DNA of 52,026 bases from Pirellulales bacterium (lineage in GTDB: Bacteria; Planctomycetota; Planctomycetia; Pirellulales; JAICIG01). Where the stretch lies: assembly GCA_035533075.1 (NCBI GenBank), contig DATLUO010000201.1, positions 1 to 52,026 of the forward strand, in the 5' to 3' direction. The number at the start of each line of letters is the position of its first letter. The first letter of the stretch is position 1. Below the pieces are notes generated by a model, which was not told the origin of the DNA, did not search any database, and saw only the letters and a list, made by a program, of their open reading frames with translations. Shown one piece after another: positions 2,989 to 36,751 of this stretch. The position numbers were made by a program, and so were the translations under genes.

Positions 2989-3381
2989 TTGTCCGAAGCA
3001 ACGCCCAGCGGCCGCGAGCTGGAGATTCTCAAGGTTCTGTGGGACATCGGCCCGGCCAGCGTGCGCGAGGTGCATGAGCGAATGTGCCCCGGCGGCGAGC
3101 TGGCCTATAACACAGTGCAGACGCTGCTGCGGATTATGGACGAGAAAGGACTGGTCGCGCACCGCACTCGCGGCCGGACTTTTGTTTACGCCGCCCGTCG
3201 CAGCCGCGACGACGAAGCTTCTCGGTTGCTGCGGCGGTTGTTCGACGGCGCCGTCGAGCAGTGCGTCGTCAGTCTGCTGAATGCCGCCGATAGCAGCGCG
3301 GAAGAGCTAAAGCGGCTGGAAAAGCTGATCGCCGACGCCCGACGGCGAAAGCAGGCCGGCCAGAAGGGAGCACAGCCATGA
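2989..3381 (+). CDS. BlaI/MecI/CopY-family transcriptional repressor
   Basis: A 130-residue protein with the winged-helix signature of this family: GRELEILKVLWDIGPASVRE, then a segment with NTVQTLLRIMDEKG and a wing RGRTFVYAA. The C-terminal half is the dimerisation region. The start is a TTG with GAGGAGGTG just upstream; an ATG start would lose the first helix. Its TGA overlaps the ATG of the M56 peptidase. In the family, proteolysis by the membrane partner relieves repression, so the pair most likely forms a sensor-repressor unit controlled by the operator at 2955-2972. Confidence 0.92.
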   Translation: MSEATPSGRELEILKVLWDIGPASVREVHERMCPGGELAYNTVQTLLRIMDEKGLVAHRTRGRTFVYAARRSRDDEASRLLRRLFDGAVEQCVVSLLNAADSSAEELKRLEKLIADARRRKQAGQKGAQP

Positions 3382-6300
3382 CCTGGGACGCGGCGATGTA
3401 CGAGTTTGTCGCGCGAGGATTTGCCGCCACGCTGCCGCTGTTGGTCGTCTCGGCCGCGGTCGTAGCCGCCTCTCGGCAGCCCGTGCGGCGCGTGCGGCTG
3501 ATTGAGTTGACGTTTCTTGCTTGCCTGGCCGCTCCGTGGCTGGGGTGGTTGCCGGTCGTGCCCCACTGGTCGGCCGCGGCGATCGCGCGACGACTGCCGG
3601 CACAAACGCCAGTTAGCCCGAACGTCACGACGGACCATCGAAACGCGGCCCGACACTCTGACCGTGAAGCACCGCGCGACGACGCCAAGCGACCGTCGTT
3701 TTCGCGTGCGCGAGCGCCGGCAGACGATTTGCGCGCGGCGAAACAACCACTGGCCGGCGCAACGCGCTCGCCGCAACCGCCCGTTGTGGCCTTCGACCTC
3801 CGCCGCTGGATTGTGATTGCGTACCTGGTCGGCGTGAGCGTCATGACCGCGTGGTGGTTGTTTGGCATGGTCGGGCTGCTGCGATTGTTGCGATCGGCCG
3901 AAACGGCCGGCGAGCGGTGCCGCAAGGAATTTGACGAGGTCGCGGGCAAAGCCGGTCCGCGGGTAAGGCTGCTGGTCGGCTCGCACATCGAACAGCCGTT
4001 CACTTTTACCTGGCATCGGGCAGTCATCGTGCTGCCACGGGAACTCTGTGACCGCGACGACCCGCGGCCGCTGCGTTGGGCCTTGGCGCACGAGTGGGCC
4101 CACGTCCGCCGGCACGACTCGCTTGGTTGGAGCCTGGCCGGGCTGGTGCGAATCGTCTTTTTCTATCAGCCGCTGGTGTGGTGGCTGCGTGGGCAGTTGC
4201 GTCTGGCGCAGGATTATGTGGCCGACGCGCAGGCGGCCGGCCAGACGCCAAGCCCGGAAGATTATGCGGAGTTTCTTACCACCTGGGTTGCCGCACATGG
4301 CGGCCGACCGCCCGCGGTCGGGCTGGGCATCGGCGGCCGAACGTCAGAACTTTATCGGAGGATCGTCATGCTTGTCGAACGCCGTCGTCCGCTGGAAACG
4401 CATTGTCCTCGCCGCTGGCGCTGGGCCGCCGTAGCCGGCGTGTTATCGATCGTCACCGCCGCCGCCACGCACGGCGAGCCGCCCAAACCGCCTGCGCAAA
4501 AGGCGCCGGAGTCGCCCTCGGCCGCGGCGAGCAAGACGGCGAAAGTCGCGCCCAAGAACCAAGAGCCGTCGCCCGACGCTTCGCCGCCACAACCCGACGC
4601 GGACACGCGCCGCTTGGTCGAGGCCGTGCTGGCGCGGGCCACGGCGATCAAAAGCGGAACGCTCGTTTTCACAGAGAGATTCGACGTTCCGGGCGGCGGC
4701 GCGAGCGACCCCGCGTCGCCCTTTGCGACCCCCGCACAGACGCCGGAGCCAATCTGGCAATGCAGTTTGTCCGGCGAGAGTTGGGCGATACGCATTCCGC
4801 CAAAGACCCAGATCGTCAACCACGACGGCCGGTACATGGATTTTGAGCAAGATCCTGACGCACGGGGGCTGAGGATTGATGACGGACCGCGGTTGACAAT
4901 CGAGCCCGCCACCACATGGACGAAGAAGCAGTTTGACTTCCCCGTGTCCGTCGGCACGATCGCGACTGCGGCGGCCCGCGACTTCGTACGAGCGAACGCC
5001 GATCGCGTGCGCGCCAGCGGTGCGGCAAAAGTCGATGACGTCGACACGCGCATATTGGAATGGGAAGTCGGGCCAACCGACCTGCGGCCTTTTGATTTCG
5101 TCAACGACATGCTCAAAAGCGGCGGCACGCTTCGCTTGTATGTGGCGGACCAACTCGGCGCGGCCTTGCCGAGAATCGAGTACGTCGACCGGTTCGGAAC
5201 GGTTCAAAGGTACTTTTCCGCCAGCGATTTCCGCGAGGTTGCGGACGGGATTCTCTTTCCCTTTCATTACAATGATTCGGGTGTCAAGTTCATCGACTTT
5301 GAGATGGTCGAGCGCGTCAACCAGAAACCGCACGACGAGTTCGTGATCGGGCCGGTCCCCTCGGGAACGCACGTACACGACACACGGCCCAAGAGCGGCG
5401 ACGATGTCAACGCGAACGGCGAGCGGATCGTCGATCTCAGCCGCTATCCCTACCGGCAATTCACCACGGGCGCCGAGTATCCGAATGGCCTTCCCACGGC
5501 GCTGTTGAAAGAACTGGACCGCGATGTGATTGCACCCGCGGCCGAGGCCAATCAAGCAATCAAGCCGGGAGACGCGTCCGAATGGAATCCGCCGAAGAAC
5601 CAATTGCTCTATGGCGGGAAGCGTTTCACCGATTGGGAGCAGCAGTTGCTCAACGACCTTGAGCCAAAGAGGCAGGTCGAAGCGATCACGGCCCTCCAAG
5701 CGTTCGGCATGAAGGGCTACGAGCACGAAGCCTTGACGGCCATTGCCCGGGCGCTAAAATCAGACGACTGGGAGGTCAAGGAATGCGCATTCGGCGCACT
5801 GTCCAAGATTGGTGTCGTTTCCGTGCCCGTGTTGCTCGACTCGCTAAAAAGTCCTGATCCGGCGATGCGCGTTCCTGCAGCGAAGGCCATCGGCGAAGTT
5901 GGTCCGGCGGCCGAATCGGCGATCGACGCGCTCAAGCAGGCCACCAGCGACAAAAATCGTGATGTTCGGAGCAACGCCGTGCGTGCGTTGGTGTTGGTTG
6001 GTGGCGCCAAGGAAGAACTCCGAACGCTCTTCGAGCGACTTGCCACCAGTGACGACTTCAGCCTTAGACTGTCTATCGTTTCGGCCCTGTCGGAAGGAAG
6101 CGGCCTTCCGACCGGACTGGTGCCGCTTGTCGTTCGAGCGCTCGATGACGAGCATTGGCAAATCCGGCTGACCGCCGGACAGGTGCTGATGCGCAAGGGA
6201 CCCCCGACTCGCAAGGTGACCGAGGGCCTGAAGCGACTCCTCCACGACGAGGACAACGGCAATGGCGGAAGCTTTTCGATGGCCTTGGCGCAGAACGAGG

Positions 6301-6668
6301 AGATGAACCTCGAAGCGATGAGCCCCGTGCTTGTTGAGGCCTTGTCGGTTCCGCTGTTGCACGCCGCCGGACTTACGCAGATGCTGGACATGCTGCTCGA
6401 CAAACTGCGGCGGCTGGGACCGAAAGCCGCCGCCGCCGTGCCCACGCTGACGCGACTAGTCGACCGCCAAAACTCTCCTCTGAACGACGCGGGAATCATA
6501 GCGGCCATGGATACCTTGGGCGCAATCGGCTCCGCCGCACGCGATGCCGTGCCGGCGCTGAAAGCCTGGACCGCGACTCCGCCCACGAACCCGAACCGCG
6601 ATTGGGAACGCATCGAAAAGCATGCGTTCAAGGCGCTTGAGAAGATCAAACACGGCGACGACAAATAA
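3378..6668 (+). CDS. BlaR1-like M56 membrane metallopeptidase with HEAT-repeat tail
   Basis: A 1096-residue protein. Helices are near 13-33, 43-60, 144-170, 250-272 and 345-362. The zinc motif HEWAH is at 238-242 with RLAQDYVAD about 37 residues later, as in M56 peptidases facing the cytoplasm. An alanine/proline-rich linker follows, then a soluble region (about 410-740) of unknown type, probably extracytoplasmic, and from about 754 to 1090 a run of HEAT-like helical pairs (VKECAFGALSKIG, MRVPAAKAIGEVGPAA, VRSNAVRALVLVGG). BlaR1 itself ends in a penicillin-binding domain, which is absent, so beta-lactam sensing is not implied. ATGA overlap with the repressor gene indicates coupling. Confidence 0.88.
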   Translation: MTWDAAMYEFVARGFAATLPLLVVSAAVVAASRQPVRRVRLIELTFLACLAAPWLGWLPVVPHWSAAAIARRLPAQTPVSPNVTTDHRNAARHSDREAPRDDAKRPSFSRARAPADDLRAAKQPLAGATRSPQPPVVAFDLRRWIVIAYLVGVSVMTAWWLFGMVGLLRLLRSAETAGERCRKEFDEVAGKAGPRVRLLVGSHIEQPFTFTWHRAVIVLPRELCDRDDPRPLRWALAHEWAHVRRHDSLGWSLAGLVRIVFFYQPLVWWLRGQLRLAQDYVADAQAAGQTPSPEDYAEFLTTWVAAHGGRPPAVGLGIGGRTSELYRRIVMLVERRRPLETHCPRRWRWAAVAGVLSIVTAAATHGEPPKPPAQKAPESPSAAASKTAKVAPKNQEPSPDASPPQPDADTRRLVEAVLARATAIKSGTLVFTERFDVPGGGASDPASPFATPAQTPEPIWQCSLSGESWAIRIPPKTQIVNHDGRYMDFEQDPDARGLRIDDGPRLTIEPATTWTKKQFDFPVSVGTIATAAARDFVRANADRVRASGAAKVDDVDTRILEWEVGPTDLRPFDFVNDMLKSGGTLRLYVADQLGAALPRIEYVDRFGTVQRYFSASDFREVADGILFPFHYNDSGVKFIDFEMVERVNQKPHDEFVIGPVPSGTHVHDTRPKSGDDVNANGERIVDLSRYPYRQFTTGAEYPNGLPTALLKELDRDVIAPAAEANQAIKPGDASEWNPPKNQLLYGGKRFTDWEQQLLNDLEPKRQVEAITALQAFGMKGYEHEALTAIARALKSDDWEVKECAFGALSKIGVVSVPVLLDSLKSPDPAMRVPAAKAIGEVGPAAESAIDALKQATSDKNRDVRSNAVRALVLVGGAKEELRTLFERLATSDDFSLRLSIVSALSEGSGLPTGLVPLVVRALDDEHWQIRLTAGQVLMRKGPPTRKVTEGLKRLLHDEDNGNGGSFSMALAQNEEMNLEAMSPVLVEALSVPLLHAAGLTQMLDMLLDKLRRLGPKAAAAVPTLTRLVDRQNSPLNDAGIIAAMDTLGAIGSAARDAVPALKAWTATPPTNPNRDWERIEKHAFKALEKIKHGDDK

Positions 6669-22297: not shown

Positions 22298-22504
22298 ATG
22301 ACGAAATTACTTGAGAGAGCCTTCGCTGAGGCCGCCAAGCTGTCTCCCTCGGAGCAGGACTTGCTGGCGGGCCGTCTGCTTGCGGAACTCGCCGCCGAAG
22401 ACGATTTCGATCGGGCCATTGCTGGCTCTGCTGATCGGCTGGCGGGGATGGCCGCCGATGCTCTCAACGACGAGTTGCAAGACCTCGACCCCGACAAGCT
22501 GTGA
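22298..22504 (+). CDS. Antitoxin of a second RelE/ParE-type pair
   Basis: A 68-residue acidic protein, MTKLLERAFAEAAKLSPSEQ to LNDELQDLDPDKL. The pattern AFAEAAKLSPSEQDLLAGRL is frequent in small antitoxins encoded before a RelE-like toxin. AGAGAGGT lies 5-6 bases before the ATG. Its TGA overlaps the GTG start of the toxin gene (GTGA), so the two are coupled. Confidence 0.8.
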   Translation: MTKLLERAFAEAAKLSPSEQDLLAGRLLAELAAEDDFDRAIAGSADRLAGMAADALNDELQDLDPDKL

Positions 22505-22770
22505 AATCAAGTACAACTCGGCAATTCCGCGAGTTGTTCGCGGTCTTGCCCGCTCACGTGCAACGGCAGTCGCGCGACGCGTACCGACTGTTTCGGCAAG
22601 ACCCTTCGCATCCAAGTCTTCGCTTCAAGAAGGTGTATGCGGATCCGGTGATCTATTCGGCTCGGGTTGGCATCGGCTATCGAGCCCTGGCAACCGTTAG
22701 CGGTGACGTCGCGACCTGGTTCTGGATCGGCTCACATGCGGATTACGACAAGTTGCTTGGGCGACTATAG
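22501..22770 (+). CDS. RelE/ParE-superfamily toxin
   Basis: An 89-residue protein starting at GTG. The sequence RQFRELFAVLPAHVQRQSRD, SLRFKKVYADPVIYSARVGI and TWFWIGSHADYDKLL is a well-known subgroup of the RelE/ParE superfamily found with the antitoxin type encoded before it. The core basic and aromatic residues of an mRNA-interferase-like fold appear retained, but no catalytic set can be named with certainty. Confidence 0.87.
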   Translation: MKSSTTRQFRELFAVLPAHVQRQSRDAYRLFRQDPSHPSLRFKKVYADPVIYSARVGIGYRALATVSGDVATWFWIGSHADYDKLLGRL

Positions 22771-22814
22771 GCTTCGCGATGCTCGGCCGGACGTCACCAG
22801 CCGACTCGACTAGA

Positions 22815-24668
22815 TTATCCCACCGCCAGCGCCGTATACGTCGTGAGTCCCGCGATCAGCAAGAAGAACGCCCCGGCCGAAAACAGGGCGATGCGCACAA
22901 ACCAGCCTGGTTGCAACTCGCGCGGCAAGAGCGTCAGGTTCACCGCCAAGGCATGCCAACAGCTAAAGCCCAAGGCGTAGTTGAAGATGTTGGTCGCGAC
23001 CTTGAGCAGCAACCCGCCCGGCACGAAGAGCAACATCAGCAAGCTGAAAACCGAGTAACAGCAGAGCACCGTAAAATAGAGCTTGCCGATGTGCCGCGGA
23101 TCGACCCGCCGCAACCGGGCGCTCGATGTCCAAAAGACGTCGAGCCAGCGACGAATCACCCCGTCGGCCGTGCTGGAAACCGTCGGCGAAAGCACCAAAA
23201 ACCCGCAGAAGAGCGTCATCAGCGTGAAGGCGTGACCGAGCGACGGTCCCCAGGCGGTCCCCACGTGCTCGCCGACGCTGTTGGCCGTCATGCCGGCGGC
23301 CGTCCAGGTGTCGGCCTCGGTTCCACGCCGCAGAAACTGCACCGAGAGCATGCTCGGCAACCCAAGCCCGATAAAGCAGGCCGGCAGCCAGACCGCGAGT
23401 TGATCGCGCATCACGTGGCGATACCAGCGTTTCCAACGCCGCAGCGTTTCGGCATTCACCGCAAACACACAGCCCACGTGCGAAAGCTGCAGGTGGTGCC
23501 CGCCCACGACACTGGGAATGGCGCCCACATGATGGCCCATGCCCCAGCCTTGATCGCGGGTGTAGTTGCTCAGCGGCGTGTTCGAGAGGCCACCTTGGCC
23601 CGAAATCGCCACCATCGCGCACAGCAGGCTGACCATGCTCAGGTTGATCAGCGGAAAGCCGCGGCCCTGCCAGAGCGAGAGGAAAAGGTTGTCGATATTG
23701 TCGCCGTCGCAGATTCCGTCGCCATCGACGTCGCGAAACTTGTCGGGCTTGCCGTCGCCGTCGATGTCGGCATAGGCGTCCGGTTTGCCGTCGTGGTCGG
23801 TATCGATGGTCGGCTCGAGCCGCTTCTCCGCCACGTCGAGATGGCCGTCGCCGTCCCAGTCTTCGCCCGCATCGAGCACACCGTTGCCGTTGCGGTCTTC
23901 GCCGCGGATGACCGGCACGTTCCCGAACTTCACGAAGCCGCTGAAAATCTCCGCCCACGTGCTCCGCTGCGAAAAACAGAAAGCCAACAGCAGCAGAAAG
24001 CCAAAGACCGTGACGATCTTGAACGACATCACCGCCTTGAGCGAGTTATAAATCTTGCCGCCGAATATCAGCGGCAGCATGCAGAGCAGGAAAATGACGC
24101 AGCCCAGGATGTTGAGCATGGTCGTATCGGTGAGCCCCAAGCCGAACACGTGAGCGATCGCTGCCGTCGATTTCGGGTCGGGCATGCGTCCCGCCGCCAG
24201 CGCAAACACCGGCGTGGCCGCGCTGGCCGAGAGATACGGAAAAATGGCCCCGATATCCAGCAGCAAATACACCGCCAGCCACCACCGTGGGCCGGGCAGC
24301 GTGCGGAACTTGCCCGTGAAAATCGGCTCGCCGCAATAGAGCGCGTAGCGGCTGATTTCGAGATTGTAAAACACCTGGAACACGATGCTCAGCGTGGCCA
24401 GCCACAGCAGCGCTCCGCCGAAGCGGGCGGTGACGAGCGGGCCGGTGAGCCATTCGCCCCCGCCGATGGCCGCCCCGCCCATGAGCAGTCCCGGCCCGAT
24501 CATGGCGAACCAGTTCCGCCAGGTGAACCGCGGCGCATCGACCAGTTCGCCCGTCGTCCAGCGCGGCATGTTGGAGGAACCGGGGTGCGGGGCGACAAAG
24601 GCCGCTTGGGTCAGCAGGTCGGGCGGTTCGGTTTGCGTGGCGGTGGCGGGCAGAGAAGCGATTTCCAT
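22815..24668 (-). CDS. Nramp-like metal transporter with a calcium-loop insert
   Basis: A 617-residue membrane protein of about 11-12 helices, starting at an ATG 138 bases inside a longer open frame. Early text (WFAMIGPGLLMGGAAIGGGE) corresponds to the Nramp TM1 region, though the DPGN metal motif is altered to GAAIGGGE, so the transported ion may differ. Between two helices, residues 257-324 form a hydrophilic insert with five D-x-D/N-G loops (DRNGNGVLD, DWDGDGHLD, DTDHDGKPD, DIDGDGKPD, DVDGDGICD), like EF-hand or thrombospondin type 3 calcium loops. Such loops normally work outside the cell. Function of the insert is unknown; calcium-dependent gating or adhesion are possible. Confidence 0.78.
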   Translation of the reverse strand: MEIASLPATATQTEPPDLLTQAAFVAPHPGSSNMPRWTTGELVDAPRFTWRNWFAMIGPGLLMGGAAIGGGEWLTGPLVTARFGGALLWLATLSIVFQVFYNLEISRYALYCGEPIFTGKFRTLPGPRWWLAVYLLLDIGAIFPYLSASAATPVFALAAGRMPDPKSTAAIAHVFGLGLTDTTMLNILGCVIFLLCMLPLIFGGKIYNSLKAVMSFKIVTVFGFLLLLAFCFSQRSTWAEIFSGFVKFGNVPVIRGEDRNGNGVLDAGEDWDGDGHLDVAEKRLEPTIDTDHDGKPDAYADIDGDGKPDKFRDVDGDGICDGDNIDNLFLSLWQGRGFPLINLSMVSLLCAMVAISGQGGLSNTPLSNYTRDQGWGMGHHVGAIPSVVGGHHLQLSHVGCVFAVNAETLRRWKRWYRHVMRDQLAVWLPACFIGLGLPSMLSVQFLRRGTEADTWTAAGMTANSVGEHVGTAWGPSLGHAFTLMTLFCGFLVLSPTVSSTADGVIRRWLDVFWTSSARLRRVDPRHIGKLYFTVLCCYSVFSLLMLLFVPGGLLLKVATNIFNYALGFSCWHALAVNLTLLPRELQPGWFVRIALFSAGAFFLLIAGLTTYTALAVG

Positions 24669-24765
24669 GCAGGTTCCCGACGGGGTGGGCAAAAGGGTGT
24701 CGGCGGGCAGGACGATGCGGACCTTTTGATAATGCCAACAATCGGCCGGATCCGCAAGGAGTTTT

Positions 24766-25356
24766 TCACCGCGGCCGCAGCTCGGCGTGCCGGTAACAGA
24801 CGACAAGATGATCGTTCACCATGCCCACGGCCTGCATGAAGGCATAGCAGATCGTGCTGCCGACGAAGCGAAAGCCGCGCCGCTTCAGGTCTTTGCTCAT
24901 GGCGTCGGATTCCGTCGTTCGTGCGGGAACTCCCTTGAGCGAGGGCCAGGCGTTCTGCTTGGGTTGCCCGTCGACGAAGCCCCAAATATAGCTCTCGAAT
25001 GTGCCAAATTCCGCCTGCACGGCCAAGAACGCCTTGGCGTTGTCGATCGCCGATGCGATCTTGAGCCGGTTGCGAACGATTCCCTCGTTCGCCAGCAGGC
25101 CCGCTTGCTTCTTCCCGCTGTATTTGGCGACCACGGCCGGGTCAAACCGATCGAAGGCTTGCCGGTAGTTTTCGCGTTTCTTGAGGATCGTGGCCCAACT
25201 CAGCCCCGCCTGCGCTCCTTCGAGAATCAGGAACTCGAACAGCAGCCGATCGTCGTGGACCGGCACGCCCCATTCGAGATCGTGGTATGCGACGTATTGG
25301 TCGCCCTTCGCCCACGCGCACCGCACCAGTTCGGTTGTCGTTCGTTTTGGCGCCAT
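24766..25356 (-). CDS. tag: DNA-3-methyladenine glycosylase I
   Basis: A 196-residue base-excision enzyme removing 3-methyladenine. Motifs: RCAWAKGDQYVAYHDLEWGV (with the Cys and His zinc ligands), HDDRLLFEFLILEGAQAGLS (with the catalytic-site Glu), WATILKKRENYRQAFDRFD, and C-terminal GFRFVGSTICYAFMQAVGMV followed by NDH and CYRH (remaining zinc ligands). I chose the ATG at 25356 (MAPKRT); an ATG at 25395 in frame adds 13 residues with no family support. It lies 97 bases upstream of the transporter on the same strand. Confidence 0.95.
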   Translation of the reverse strand: MAPKRTTTELVRCAWAKGDQYVAYHDLEWGVPVHDDRLLFEFLILEGAQAGLSWATILKKRENYRQAFDRFDPAVVAKYSGKKQAGLLANEGIVRNRLKIASAIDNAKAFLAVQAEFGTFESYIWGFVDGQPKQNAWPSLKGVPARTTESDAMSKDLKRRGFRFVGSTICYAFMQAVGMVNDHLVVCYRHAELRPR

Positions 25357-27982: not shown

Positions 27983-28414
27983 TCATAAACTCGGGCGCGA
28001 CCTGTTCAGCGCCTGCGTAACCTCGTACCACAAAAGCGGTGAGACATCATGAGGGCCACTTGCCGCAATTCGCTTGATGGCTTCTTCCGGCTCGATGCCC
28101 TCGATCCGTGCCGTTACCGCCGCTGCAATGGCGGGCGAGCGACTCATGCCTCCGCTGCAGCTTATCAGCGTCGGCGCCATTGCCCTGACGAAGATGACCG
28201 CGGTGTTGATCGCCGCCTCGATTGTTACCGGTGAATTCCCTTGTCCGTCAACCAGCGGAAAACGGCAATAGATTAGCTCCCTTGGGGCCGAAACGGGCGA
28301 CTCCTCCATTGCCAGGTCGATGACGGCCTGGATTCGGTGATCGAACACGCTTTTGAAATCACGCGCATCGAACGCATTGCCGATCCAGAGCAAGCCAGGA
28401 AGAACTTCTCGCAT
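27983..28414 (-). CDS. Dual-specificity-type protein phosphatase
   Basis: A 143-residue protein that begins REVLPGLLWIGNAFDARDF and carries the active-site loop CSGGMSR (Cys86 to Arg92), that is Cx5R, followed by SPAIAAAVTARI as in DSP-type phosphatases. The usual His before Cys is Ser here (ISCSGG). Asp57 in LVDGQGN may be the general acid. I chose the ATG at 28414 because the preceding 27 residues of the open frame overlap the nucleotidyltransferase gene and are not family-like; the chosen start is 13 bases after that gene. In this operon an RNA-end or 2'-phosphate substrate is possible, but protein dephosphorylation cannot be excluded. Confidence 0.85.
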   Translation of the reverse strand: MREVLPGLLWIGNAFDARDFKSVFDHRIQAVIDLAMEESPVSAPRELIYCRFPLVDGQGNSPVTIEAAINTAVIFVRAMAPTLISCSGGMSRSPAIAAAVTARIEGIEPEEAIKRIAASGPHDVSPLLWYEVTQALNRSRPSL

Positions 28415-28427
28415 TATGTCGCTCCAA

Positions 28428-29522
28428 TCACTCAGTCGTCTCCGACTCGTAAATTCCCAGCGCAGCCGAAACCCGCTTCCAACACGCAATCGCATAAGCC
28501 ATCACGTCTTCGTCACTTGCCTCGGGCTGGCGCTCACGAAACCGCCGCTGAAAACTGGGGGAACCACATCGCTCACGCTCACCAACATCGTCAAGCGCTT
28601 TCCTAAGCCGAACTTGTTCGCCCGCCGCCTCGGCCCAGGTCCAATGCATCATCCATAACAGGCTCTCCAGCGCATTCGGATCCTCCACGTACATCGTCGG
28701 TCTTTTCTCGATGTAGGCAATGGTTTCCGCGTATTTTTGAATTAAGGCCGCGCGGCACGGATCCGGCGGGCGCTCCTTAAGCCGCAGCCGGACCAGCAGG
28801 TCGCTTAACTCCGCGGTGCCGCTCGGCGTCTCCGGCAGTTTGCTTTCGTCGAAAGCCCGCTGTAAGTCCGCTTGCAGCCGTTCGTACTCCCGCTCATAAA
28901 ATCCTATGTCGGCCCGCTCAAGCCGCCCTTTTTCTGGGCCGCAGGTCTTGCGCTCGATCAGTTCGGGGATGTAGGGGAGTTTGGCCGTCTCGTTCAGCCG
29001 CACGAGGTTGGCCTCAACCTCGCCAGTTCGCATCAGGTGGATGCCCGTCAGCAATACGCGATATACGTAGAGCAACGGCTTCACGTGCGGCGGGTCGGCC
29101 TTTTGAAAGAGCTTCCACTGGCTCTCGGCAAAGCCCAGGTAATGGTGGGCGTGGTACCTCGTGACGCAGCCGGCGGCAATCGCCGCGAGCTCGTAATACT
29201 CAGGCGTCGCATGGACCACCAGCGGCGAAAGCACCTGTTCCAGCACATAGCCGTTCTTCTTGAGCATCAGCCTGAAGAACTTCGCGGCGTCGTGCGTCAC
29301 GAGGTCGATCTCCAGGCCGTCGTGAACACCCGATTTCTCGATGGTCTCCTGGCCGGGTTTCAGGCTCACGATTTCTTCCAGCGGAAGCAGGTGGACGCCG
29401 CGCAGATCATAGTCGGAATCGGGCGAAGGGAAGCCGTAAAGGTGCGCGCCGCTGATCGTTGCGAACAGCAGTGGGTACGGATGGTCTTCAACTTGCTTTT
29501 GGAGCCGAAAGTCAATCGTCAT
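28428..29522 (-). CDS. RlaP-like Pol-beta-fold nucleotidyltransferase with extra C-terminal domain
   Basis: A 364-residue protein. Residues 1-250 are the nucleotidyltransferase module named RlaP (RNA ligase-associated Pol beta) in work on bacterial RNA repair: FATISGAHLYGFPSPDSDYD holds the glycine-rich turn and the metal-binding Asp37/Asp39, and LEIDLVTHD a third acidic site. Residues 259-364 form an added domain (TIAYIEKRPTMYVEDPNALE, then WMMHWTWAEAAG, and CWKRVSAALGIYE) that looks like the stand-alone RPxMYLG-type small proteins. The ATG at 29522 overlaps the stop of the remnant upstream (ATGA). The role is probably nucleotide addition to, or tailoring of, RNA ends before ligation; inferred from context. 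Confidence 0.85.
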   Translation of the reverse strand: MTIDFRLQKQVEDHPYPLLFATISGAHLYGFPSPDSDYDLRGVHLLPLEEIVSLKPGQETIEKSGVHDGLEIDLVTHDAAKFFRLMLKKNGYVLEQVLSPLVVHATPEYYELAAIAAGCVTRYHAHHYLGFAESQWKLFQKADPPHVKPLLYVYRVLLTGIHLMRTGEVEANLVRLNETAKLPYIPELIERKTCGPEKGRLERADIGFYEREYERLQADLQRAFDESKLPETPSGTAELSDLLVRLRLKERPPDPCRAALIQKYAETIAYIEKRPTMYVEDPNALESLLWMMHWTWAEAAGEQVRLRKALDDVGERERCGSPSFQRRFRERQPEASDEDVMAYAIACWKRVSAALGIYESETTE

Positions 29523-33910: not shown

Positions 33911-36751
33911 ATGTCGCCCAACAGGCAAATCCGTCATCGAAACCGCCGTCCGTTGGAGAAACTGCTGCCGGTGGTTCTGCTGCTATTCGCCGCCGTCGTG
34001 GCCTGGCGACTTTGGCAACGCGCCCATTCGCCCGCCCACCTGCTCGAACAAGCGCGTCAAGCGCGAGAGTCGAAAGACTACGCCGCCGCATTGCGCTACT
34101 ACGACCAGATCGACGCCGCCGCCGGCGAGGAGGCCGTCGAGGGCCGCTGCGCCGCCGCGGAAATCTGGCTTCAATTGGGCCACGCCTCCCAGGCCGAAGC
34201 CCGCTTTCGCCAAGCGCTGGAAATCGACCCGCATAGCGCGCCGGCTCACGATCGCCTGGCAAACCTGTTGACCGTGGAAGGCCGCCGCTTCGAGTCGTTG
34301 CCGCACCTCTATGAACTGCTGCGCCAGCGCCGCTGTTCCTACGATGTCCTGTTCCTGGCCGGCGACCACGCCAAGACCGTGGAAGCGGCCGACGACCTGG
34401 CCCGCTTCCGCGCCGCGGCGCCCGACGATCCGGCCCCCTTGATCGGTCTGGCCCGCATCGAAATCCGCAAGCAAAACGACGCCCAAGCGGCCAAGATGCT
34501 GAGACAGGTGATCGCCGACGCCCCCGAGTTGATCGAAGCACATGCCCTGCTGGGACGAGTTCTCTTGGAATCGCCCGAAGACGACGAGCTGGCCACCTGG
34601 TCCGCCGCTTTGCCCAGCGAGGCCGACGGGCATCCGGATATCTGGTTCGTCCGCGGCGGCTGGGCGAAACGACGCGGCGAGACCGAGGCCGCCGCGCGGT
34701 GCCTGTGGGAGGCCCTGCGGCGCGACGCCAATCACCAATCGGCCACGCTGCAATTGTCTCAATTGCTCGAGACGCTGGGCCAAACGGCGCTGGCCAAAGA
34801 CCTGGGCCAACGCGCCGTGGCGCTGGCCGATCTCTCCCTGGCACTCGAATCGTTGCGTTTGCACCAAGACGATGTTTCGCAACTGTTCCGCGTGGCCCGG
34901 CAGGCCGAAGCGTTGGGCCGGTTGTGGGAAGCCCGGGGCTGGAACCAGCTCGCCCTCTCTGCGGGCGATGCCGGCTGGGCGCGCGAAGCGCTGGCCCGCA
35001 TCGAGCCGCAGCTCGACGATGCGCTGCCCCCGACCTTGCCGCAGATCGATCCGGGCGTTCGACTCGATTTAGCGCATTACCCGCTGCCCGACGAACGCCA
35101 GCCAGCACGCTTGCGCTACGATCGCGGCGCCGCGCCGGCGCTCGTTGCCGCCGGCCCCCGGTTTGAAAACGTCGCAAGCGAAGCGGGCATCGCTTTCCGC
35201 TATTTTTGCGGCCGCGAAGGATCGGACCCGCGCGCCCGCATGTTCGAGTCGCTGGGCGGCGGCATCGCGGTCGTCGATTTCGATCTCGACGGCTGGCCCG
35301 ATCTCTATTTCACGCAAGGCTGCCGCTGGCCGCCGCGGGCGGGTCAGAGCGAATTTCTCGACGCCCTGTATCGCAACCTGGGCAGGGAGCGGTTCGCCGA
35401 CGTCACACGCGCCAGCCGCCTCGGCGACGAGCGGTTCAGCCAGGGGGCGACGGTCGGCGACTTCAACAACGACGGCTTTCCGGATCTTTACGTCGCCAAC
35501 ATCGGAGTCAACCGGCTGTACGTGAACGAGGGCGACGGAACGTTCAGCGACGTCGGCGAAGCGGCGGGCATCCGGGCCGACCGCTGGACCACAAGCTGCG
35601 TGTTGGCCGACCTCAACGGCGACGGGCTGCCCGACCTGTACGACGTGAACTATCTCCAAGGCCCCGGCGTGTTCGAGCAGACCTGTCCCGTCGACGGCCA
35701 GCCGCGCACCTGCCGGCCCAGCACGTTCCAGCCGGCCCCCGACATGTTTTACCTCAACTTGGGCGACGGCCGATTTCAAGAAATGACCGAAGCCGCCGGG
35801 CTGCGCGCCGCGGGAGGCAACGGCCTGGGGATTGTGGCGAGCGATTTCGACGGCACGGGCAAGCTGAGCCTTTTCGTCGCCAACGATCAGGACGCCAACT
35901 TTTACTTCGTGAATCGCACGCCGGCCGCCGGCGCACGGCCGCGGTTCGAAGAACGCGGACTGCTCTCAGGACTCGCCTTCGACGGCGCGGGCCGGGCGCT
36001 GGCGTGCATGGGGGTGGCCGCCGGCGACGCCAACGGCGACGGAAGAATCGACCTGTTGGTCACCAACTTCAGCCAGGAGTCGTGTACCCTTTATTTGCAC
36101 GAGGCCGGCGACTTGTTCACCGACGCCACGGGGCCAGCCGGCCTGCGCGGGCCGAGTTTCGCGATGTTGGGCTTCGGCACGCAGTTCCTCGACGGCGAGC
36201 TGGACGGACTCGCGGACTTGGTCGTGACCAACGGGCACGTCCACGAGTTTTCGTCGCCGGGCGTCTCCTACGCGATGCGGCCCCAGTATTTTCGCAATCT
36301 CGGCGGCGGCCGGTTCGAAGAGCTTCCGGCAGACCGCTTGGGAGCCTATTTCGAGCAAGCCTGCTTCGGCCGAAGCCTGGCGCGCCTGGACTTCAACCGC
36401 GACGGCCGCGACGATTTCGCGGTATCGTCGCTCGATGCGCCGCTTGCGCTGTTGTGCAACCGGACGGAGCCGGCCGGCCATTTTCTCGCGGTGCAGCTTA
36501 AGGGTGTGCGGTCCTCTCGCGATGCCGTTGGCGCCGTGGTGACGATCCAGATTGGCGAGCGCCGGCAGACGCAATGGCTGAAGGCGGGTGACGGCTTCCA
36601 GGCCAGCAACCAGCGGCAGTTGACTTTTGGCCTGGGGGCTGCCAGACGCATCGAGAAGCTGCACATTGCCTGGCCGTCCGGGGTCGCACAAGAGTATACC
36701 GACCTGCCCGCCGACGAGTCGTTGATTCTCGTCGAGGGTGTACCGCGATGA
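33911..36751 (+). CDS. TPR - FG-GAP/VCBS - ASPIC/UnbV protein
   Basis: A 946-residue protein. A signal-anchor helix (about 15-32, LEKLLPVVLLLFAAVVAWRL) is followed by TPR-type units (45-370), then a beta-propeller of FG-GAP/VCBS repeats (about 415-830) with calcium-binding loops DFDLDGWPDLYF, DFNNDGFPDLYV, DLNGDGLPDLYD, DANGDGRIDLLV, and finally the ASPIC/UnbV domain (about 857-940, VGAVVTIQIGERRQ to HIAWPSG). Known as the CRTAC1-like family, abundant in planctomycetes; roles in cell-surface binding are presumed. It is divergent from the six-repeat operon, with 103 bases between. Confidence 0.9.
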   Translation: MSPNRQIRHRNRRPLEKLLPVVLLLFAAVVAWRLWQRAHSPAHLLEQARQARESKDYAAALRYYDQIDAAAGEEAVEGRCAAAEIWLQLGHASQAEARFRQALEIDPHSAPAHDRLANLLTVEGRRFESLPHLYELLRQRRCSYDVLFLAGDHAKTVEAADDLARFRAAAPDDPAPLIGLARIEIRKQNDAQAAKMLRQVIADAPELIEAHALLGRVLLESPEDDELATWSAALPSEADGHPDIWFVRGGWAKRRGETEAAARCLWEALRRDANHQSATLQLSQLLETLGQTALAKDLGQRAVALADLSLALESLRLHQDDVSQLFRVARQAEALGRLWEARGWNQLALSAGDAGWAREALARIEPQLDDALPPTLPQIDPGVRLDLAHYPLPDERQPARLRYDRGAAPALVAAGPRFENVASEAGIAFRYFCGREGSDPRARMFESLGGGIAVVDFDLDGWPDLYFTQGCRWPPRAGQSEFLDALYRNLGRERFADVTRASRLGDERFSQGATVGDFNNDGFPDLYVANIGVNRLYVNEGDGTFSDVGEAAGIRADRWTTSCVLADLNGDGLPDLYDVNYLQGPGVFEQTCPVDGQPRTCRPSTFQPAPDMFYLNLGDGRFQEMTEAAGLRAAGGNGLGIVASDFDGTGKLSLFVANDQDANFYFVNRTPAAGARPRFEERGLLSGLAFDGAGRALACMGVAAGDANGDGRIDLLVTNFSQESCTLYLHEAGDLFTDATGPAGLRGPSFAMLGFGTQFLDGELDGLADLVVTNGHVHEFSSPGVSYAMRPQYFRNLGGGRFEELPADRLGAYFEQACFGRSLARLDFNRDGRDDFAVSSLDAPLALLCNRTEPAGHFLAVQLKGVRSSRDAVGAVVTIQIGERRQTQWLKAGDGFQASNQRQLTFGLGAARRIEKLHIAWPSGVAQEYTDLPADESLILVEGVPR

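Follow-up and report, generated by a model that had tools for sequence, protein, structure and literature searches.

Canonical Nramp/MntH proteins, such as DraNramp, DMT1 and NRAMP1, share an overall fold in which helices TM1 and TM6 are discontinuous, and bind their metal with an Asp and an Asn in TM1 (the DPGN motif) and a Met and a His in TM6 (the MPH motif). In EleNRMT, one of the Nramp-related magnesium transporters (NRMT), the TM1 aspartate is kept as Asp55, and its role has been described (PMC8806188). A 2026 preprint (PMC12873925) further describes Nramp-related groups that are paraphyletic and, with two exceptions, regards them as uncharacterised; among them are G-motif groups. Proteins matching the family model NCBIfam NF037982 likewise have the LeuT/Nramp fold and a glycine-rich TM1 motif, and lack both DPGN and MPH.

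Dx[DN]xDG loops, as found in EF-hands, thrombospondin type 3 repeats and dockerins, serve as Ca2+-binding sites in a wide variety of folds, with a strong bias to extracytoplasmic proteins (PMC3123361). Here we describe a transporter from a Pirellulales bacterium that combines both: an Nramp-related carrier with five such loops between TM5 and TM6. In our literature search, we did not find a large calcium-loop insert described for NF037982 proteins; likewise, a search for calcium loops in Nramp proteins, or for Nramp proteins of Planctomycetes, returned no earlier description, which is no proof of absence.

An Nramp-related transporter

The transporter is encoded in a window of 52,026 nucleotides, the whole stretch of DNA that was analysed. 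Its main features outside the insert are:

22815–24668, minus strand: coding sequence of the Nramp-related transporter, 617 amino acids (121 bits with NCBIfam NF037982, whose cut-off is 50; AF2 fold)
24453–24476, minus strand: unwound TM1 motif GAAIGGGE (residues 65–72), replacing the DPGN type; Glu72 is invariant
23973–24053, minus strand: TM5 (residues 206–232), from the AF2 secondary structure
23553–23642, minus strand: TM6 (residues 343–372), broken at an SGQGG stretch, with no Met/His at the canonical MPH site

The span 22815–24668 given in the original prediction is correct, the gene itself reading on the minus strand from an ATG at 24668 to a stop at 22815–22817. A plus-strand open reading frame of 686 amino acids over the same span (22779–24839) was rejected as an antisense shadow of the GC-rich transporter gene. 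A scan for promoters and terminators around the gene returned nothing above chance. Its neighbours in the window are a DNA glycosylase, a ParE-like toxin and uvrB, which give no hint of a substrate. The toxin gene (22501–22770, plus strand) is preceded by a short open reading frame ending at 22504, and the two are likely a toxin-antitoxin pair (22311–22770, plus strand), convergent with the transporter gene. Elsewhere, the window encodes a 1096-residue BlaR1-type M56 peptidase fused to HEAT repeats (3378–6668, plus strand), an RNA ligase-like protein (PF09414; 27165–27905, minus strand) with an adjoining, weakly dual-specificity-phosphatase-like protein (27983–28495), and a 946-residue protein with TPR, FG-GAP and UnbV_ASPIC domains (33911–36751, plus strand), which has calcium-type repeats of the FG-GAP kind and is no transporter.

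NF037982 (Nramp_1) matches the whole protein with 121.3 bits (curated cut-off, 50 bits) and all 77 of 77 aligned family members with an E-value of 0.01 or better, while Pfam PF01566 (Nramp) does not match the transporter and recognizes only 3 of the 77. The AF2 model, computed from the 77-row alignment (pLDDT 90.7, pTM 0.91), has 11 transmembrane helices with TM1 and TM6 broken, that is, the LeuT-type fold of the Nramp/SLC11 superfamily, a membership that applies at the level of the modelled fold. The best structural matches (Foldseek, VIA) all belong to the Nramp family (DraNramp, human NRAMP1, DMT1, EleNRMT and YcsG; Z 27–30), with Z about 29–30 for the canonical proteins and, for DraNramp 6d91, Z 29.9 and an rmsd of 3.0 over 391 residues. 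Bacillus subtilis YcsG/MntG is itself listed among the Nramp-related proteins; our comparison with it concerns the fold only. On the sequence-profile level, the best match among solved structures is EleNRMT, which the family profile covers from TM1 to TM5 (E 1.5e-6); the profile also matches a Bacteroides Nramp over TM1–TM2.

These alignments show how the substrate site departs from the known ones. GGGE, the last four residues of GAAIGGGE, aligns with the DPGN of the Bacteroides Nramp, and Gly69 with Asp55 of EleNRMT, so that the transporter has neither the canonical motif nor the NRMT aspartate; where EleNRMT keeps its carboxylate, it has a glycine, and a carboxylate follows three residues further on (Glu72). 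Likewise, residues 343–372 contain no His, and the TM6 break has no conserved Met. In contrast to canonical Nramp/MntH proteins, the transporter thus has neither the Asp/Asn ligands of TM1 nor the Met/His ligands of TM6, and carries a predicted periplasmic insert: it is an Nramp-related protein without DPGN/MPH, of the kind that the preprint describes, and not a canonical Nramp. Of the features of the G-motif groups, it shows the glycine-rich TM1. The original prediction of a calcium-type insert in an Nramp-like carrier is borne out, the branch being Nramp-related. The altered TM1 motif is also present as claimed, but is no peculiarity of this protein: GGGE is the rule in the subfamily. In the subfamily, Glu72, Glu104 and Arg107 are invariant irrespective of the insert, as is the GxGGLxN stretch of TM6, and close relatives without it have the same GGGE and TM6. 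Since GGGE is general with or without the insert, the altered TM1 is uninformative about the latter.

Calcium-type loops between TM5 and TM6

The insert and its five loops are located as follows:

23694–23906, minus strand: calcium-loop insert (about residues 255–325), predicted periplasmic, between strands 250–254 and 323–327
23862–23897, minus strand: loop 1, DRNGNGVLDAGE (258–269), an EF-hand-type 12-mer; ligand columns kept in 61 of 61 relatives
23826–23861, minus strand: loop 2, DWDGDGHLDVAE (270–281), an EF-hand-type 12-mer abutting loop 1
23769–23804, minus strand: loop 3, DTDHDGKPDAYA (289–300)
23733–23768, minus strand: loop 4, DIDGDGKPDKFR (301–312)
23697–23732, minus strand: loop 5, DVDGDGICDGDN (313–324); an equivalent last loop is found in 61 of 62 insert-bearing relatives

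In the AF2 fold, the loops are located between TM5 and TM6, interrupting the membrane domain between two helices as originally proposed, and are predicted to lie outside the membrane. The Dx[DN]x[DN]G motif starts at residues 258, 270, 289, 301 and 313, and all five copies add an acidic residue at position 9, which corresponds to the ligand pattern D1-x-[DN]3-x-[DN]5-G6-x-x-[D]9 of known Dx[DN]xDG loops. Shuffling leads one to expect 0.02 motifs for the whole protein and 0.26 for the insert residues, and none of 5000 shuffles reaches five. In a search of the 8.5 Mb genome with a DNA-level pattern for the loop motif, the single motif occurs 159 times (control, 2), and the proteins at the 30 listed loci that were examined have at most one predicted transmembrane helix; the tandem arrangement with 12-residue spacing is found in this gene only.

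Loops TM2–3, 4–5, 8–9 and 10–11 contain 1.4–2.1 Lys/Arg per 10 residues, loop TM6–7 as cut 0.9, and the longer outer loops 0.3–0.9. Together with the known Nramp topology, this positive-inside pattern predicts that the TM5–TM6 loop lies on the outer, periplasmic side, and a cytoplasmic insert, which would have spoken against the original proposal, does not agree with the prediction. The insert is modelled with a pLDDT of about 88–95 as a helix-free segment with two short strands (250–254 and 323–327) at its base.

The known calcium loops offer partial parallels. Like EF-hand loops, loops 1 and 2 also have a hydrophobic position 8 and Glu12; true EF-hands can nevertheless be ruled out, because the loops are without helices in the model, none being found in residues 251–327. 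Like thrombospondin type 3 repeats, the loops are tandem and helix-free, but the conserved cysteines of these repeats are missing (of 63 insert-bearing proteins, only 4 have a cysteine), and the Pfam TSP3 family is unmatched. The insert thus differs from known calcium loops in having neither flanking helices nor conserved cysteines, in matching the Pfam calcium-loop families (EF-hand, FG-GAP, dockerin) only below their cut-offs, and in being part of a multi-pass transporter. No solved structure matches the insert alone significantly, and Foldseek is uninformative on the novelty of its fold because the transporter part fills the match list.

The putative ligands are strikingly constant. D1, N3, N5, D9 and E12 of loop 1 are found in 61 of 61 insert-bearing relatives, D1, D3, D5 and D9 of loop 2 in 58–59 of 61, and the four aspartates of the last loop in 60–61 of 61. 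In twelve pairs of proteins, 215 comparisons at ligand positions gave 5 differences (2%), a value with a mild bias towards conservation, as one sequence per pair served to define the ligands; in the same pairs, differences were counted at 25 of 50 other Asp/Asn residues in the insert (50%), at 249 of 756 other insert residues and at 64 of 315 Asp/Asn residues outside the insert. On the codon level, the ligands have a pN of 0.007, compared with 0.053 in the membrane part and 0.146 in the remaining insert. The survey of homologues therefore removes the objection that the insert might be non-conserved.

The loops, their place and their conservation are directly computed, and we consider it probable that, on this Nramp-related secondary transporter of the LeuT fold, they build a periplasmic cap that Ca2+ stabilises. 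The loop between TM5 and TM6 would have expanded into a compact, helix-free module, in which some four to five Ca2+ ions are most likely held by Asp, Asn and Glu side chains in the calcium-rich periplasm. We infer that Ca2+ folds and stiffens this acidic, otherwise unstructured loop into a cap, with strands 250–254 and 323–327 as its base, beside the outer half of TM6, which lines the outward-facing gate in this fold. The cap may then serve as an accessory that stabilises the outer face or offers it for docking, perhaps tuning its opening.

Turnover of the insert in relatives

Apart from one that is labelled Verrucomicrobia, all homologues belong to Planctomycetota and Acidobacteriota. The insert is located at the same place in 63 of 105 aligned family members (Planctomycetota, Acidobacteriota), a sample skewed towards inserts, as the query of the contig search contained one insert peptide. 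In an insert-blind sample of the closest subfamily, the insert is present in 13 genomes (including this one), absent in 8, and represented by a Gly/Ala linker in 1. With so many close relatives lacking it, the insert is dispensable for the basic function of the carrier. Insert length varies, the whole TM5–TM6 stretch ranging from 68 to 171 residues, and the TM5–TM6 loop of this transporter is about 60 residues longer than in its insert-less relatives. On a quick tree of guide value, calculated with the insert columns excluded, parsimony requires at least 11 changes of insert state, 6 of them forced by well-supported branches, gains and losses being indistinguishable. The insert comes and goes as a unit, with the transport core unchanged, and we found no core column that convincingly tracks its presence.

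In a distant clade with 38% core identity, loops 1 and 2 are 72% identical, which points to a single origin or to an exchange of the module; ligand constraint accounts for part of this identity. In a distant clade, L092–L099, loops 1, 2 and the last are retained, with a long, mostly non-calcium stretch between them. Two transporters, L046 (3974–5785, plus strand) and L057 (3974–5929, plus strand), are 97% identical in the core and have inserts of 90 and 138 residues, respectively. This is a recent replacement of middle repeats, and the length difference shows that these are exchanged rapidly, whereas the first two loops and the last persist. Moreover, a Fuerstiella MAG encodes two Nramp-like genes in tandem (L061, 4034–5770 and 5941–7536, both plus strand), only one of which has the insert.

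Such turnover could also be expected of a neutral filler, that is, a tolerated acidic repeat that neither binds Ca2+ nor has a function. The repeated presence and absence, the variable length and a relative with a Gly/Ala-rich linker alone at the insert site (L021) fit this reading, but we consider it very improbable, as the ligands are constrained far more than the rest of the insert and the membrane core, and the fold is modelled with high confidence.

For the Ca2+-stabilised cap, an accessory role is more likely than one in substrate selection, because relatives lose or resize the cap while the core and the TM1/TM6 site remain unchanged. That site is the same with or without the cap and no core column follows it, which speaks against a part of the cap in substrate choice.

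A rival reading is a docking module, in which the Ca2+-folded cap binds a periplasmic partner (an envelope polymer, a protein or a second copy of the transporter) and thereby places the carrier. Surface and secreted proteins are the typical carriers of Dx[DN]xDG loops (PMC3123361), and length and repeat number change fast in L046 and L057, as in binding surfaces. Furthermore, a paralogue in the same genome (contig 156; L002/L154, 149–2062, plus strand) has a beta-rich domain of ~145 residues at the same TM5–TM6 position, which is free of calcium motifs, unrelated to the insert and common to the orthologues L146–L153 (AF2 pLDDT 85.7 overall); this position thus seems to act as a hot spot at which periplasmic domains are placed. 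However, no conserved neighbour gene offers a partner, and the conserved loops (1, 2 and the last) show no evident binding surface, which leaves docking rather unlikely.

Only slightly less doubtful, in our view, is a role as calcium sensor, in which Ca2+ bound to the cap would control whether the outward gate beside TM6a opens or closes, and external Ca2+ would set the activity of the carrier. A gating or sensing role is conceivable because the cap leads straight into TM6, the outer gate in this fold, and the ligands are more constrained than the membrane core. If so, the protein would be a bacterial carrier of the Nramp superfamily whose outer gate bears an extracellular calcium sensor of its own, built in and exchangeable. 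Against this, the insert is present without a co-varying core residue, its state switches several times between closely related carriers that share one core, and its middle part is freely replaced.

Possible substrates and implications

The nature of the substrate bears on one further reading of the loops, a cation antenna: at the carrier's mouth, the acidic loops would enrich the divalent ion to be transported (Mn2+, Fe2+, Mg2+ or Ca2+). An acidic cluster at the entrance of a carrier related to metal carriers is consistent with such a role, but the canonical metal ligands (the TM1 Asp and the TM6 Met/His) are absent, the motif geometry is that of calcium loops, and there are no metal genes or riboswitches nearby. 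We therefore regard the antenna as improbable. Riboswitches from Rfam, such as the M-box that links to part of the NRMT group, were detected neither in the window nor at 13 related loci; NRMT members without a magnesium riboswitch are known.

The missing metal ligands, the carboxylate moved from the Asp to the Asn position of TM1, and the recurring dehydrogenases, lactonases and cyclases in the neighbourhood of relatives make an organic substrate, such as an organic acid or sugar derivative, a serious option. Short-chain dehydrogenases, SMP-30 lactonases, Gfo/Idh/MocA oxidoreductases, cyclases and Ldh_2 proteins recur there, and metal genes are not among the recurring neighbours. B. subtilis YcsG is similarly ambiguous: it is encoded in a 5-oxoprolinase operon and has long been annotated as a 5-oxoproline importer; Mn2+ import by YcsG was reported in a 2023 study. 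On the other hand, few proteins are as common in bacteria as short-chain dehydrogenases, and the neighbour recurrence is given without a background rate. As a clue to substrate or partner, the gene neighbourhood yields only scattered carbohydrate and hydroxyacid genes, and the neighbours in the window are DNA repair and toxin-antitoxin genes. An organic substrate is hence a tentative proposal; it is compatible with the Ca2+-stabilised cap, the loops then being only stabilising.

If the cap indeed binds calcium, the loop of a multi-pass transporter would be added to the contexts in which Dx[DN]xDG calcium loops are known. As nature provides pairs of close carriers with and without the module, its effect is directly testable; the insert-less relative L017, for example, is about 65% identical. 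This may be of wider interest, since the Nramp-related branch is large, nearly uncharacterised and key to the origin of metal selectivity and proton coupling in Nramp proteins.
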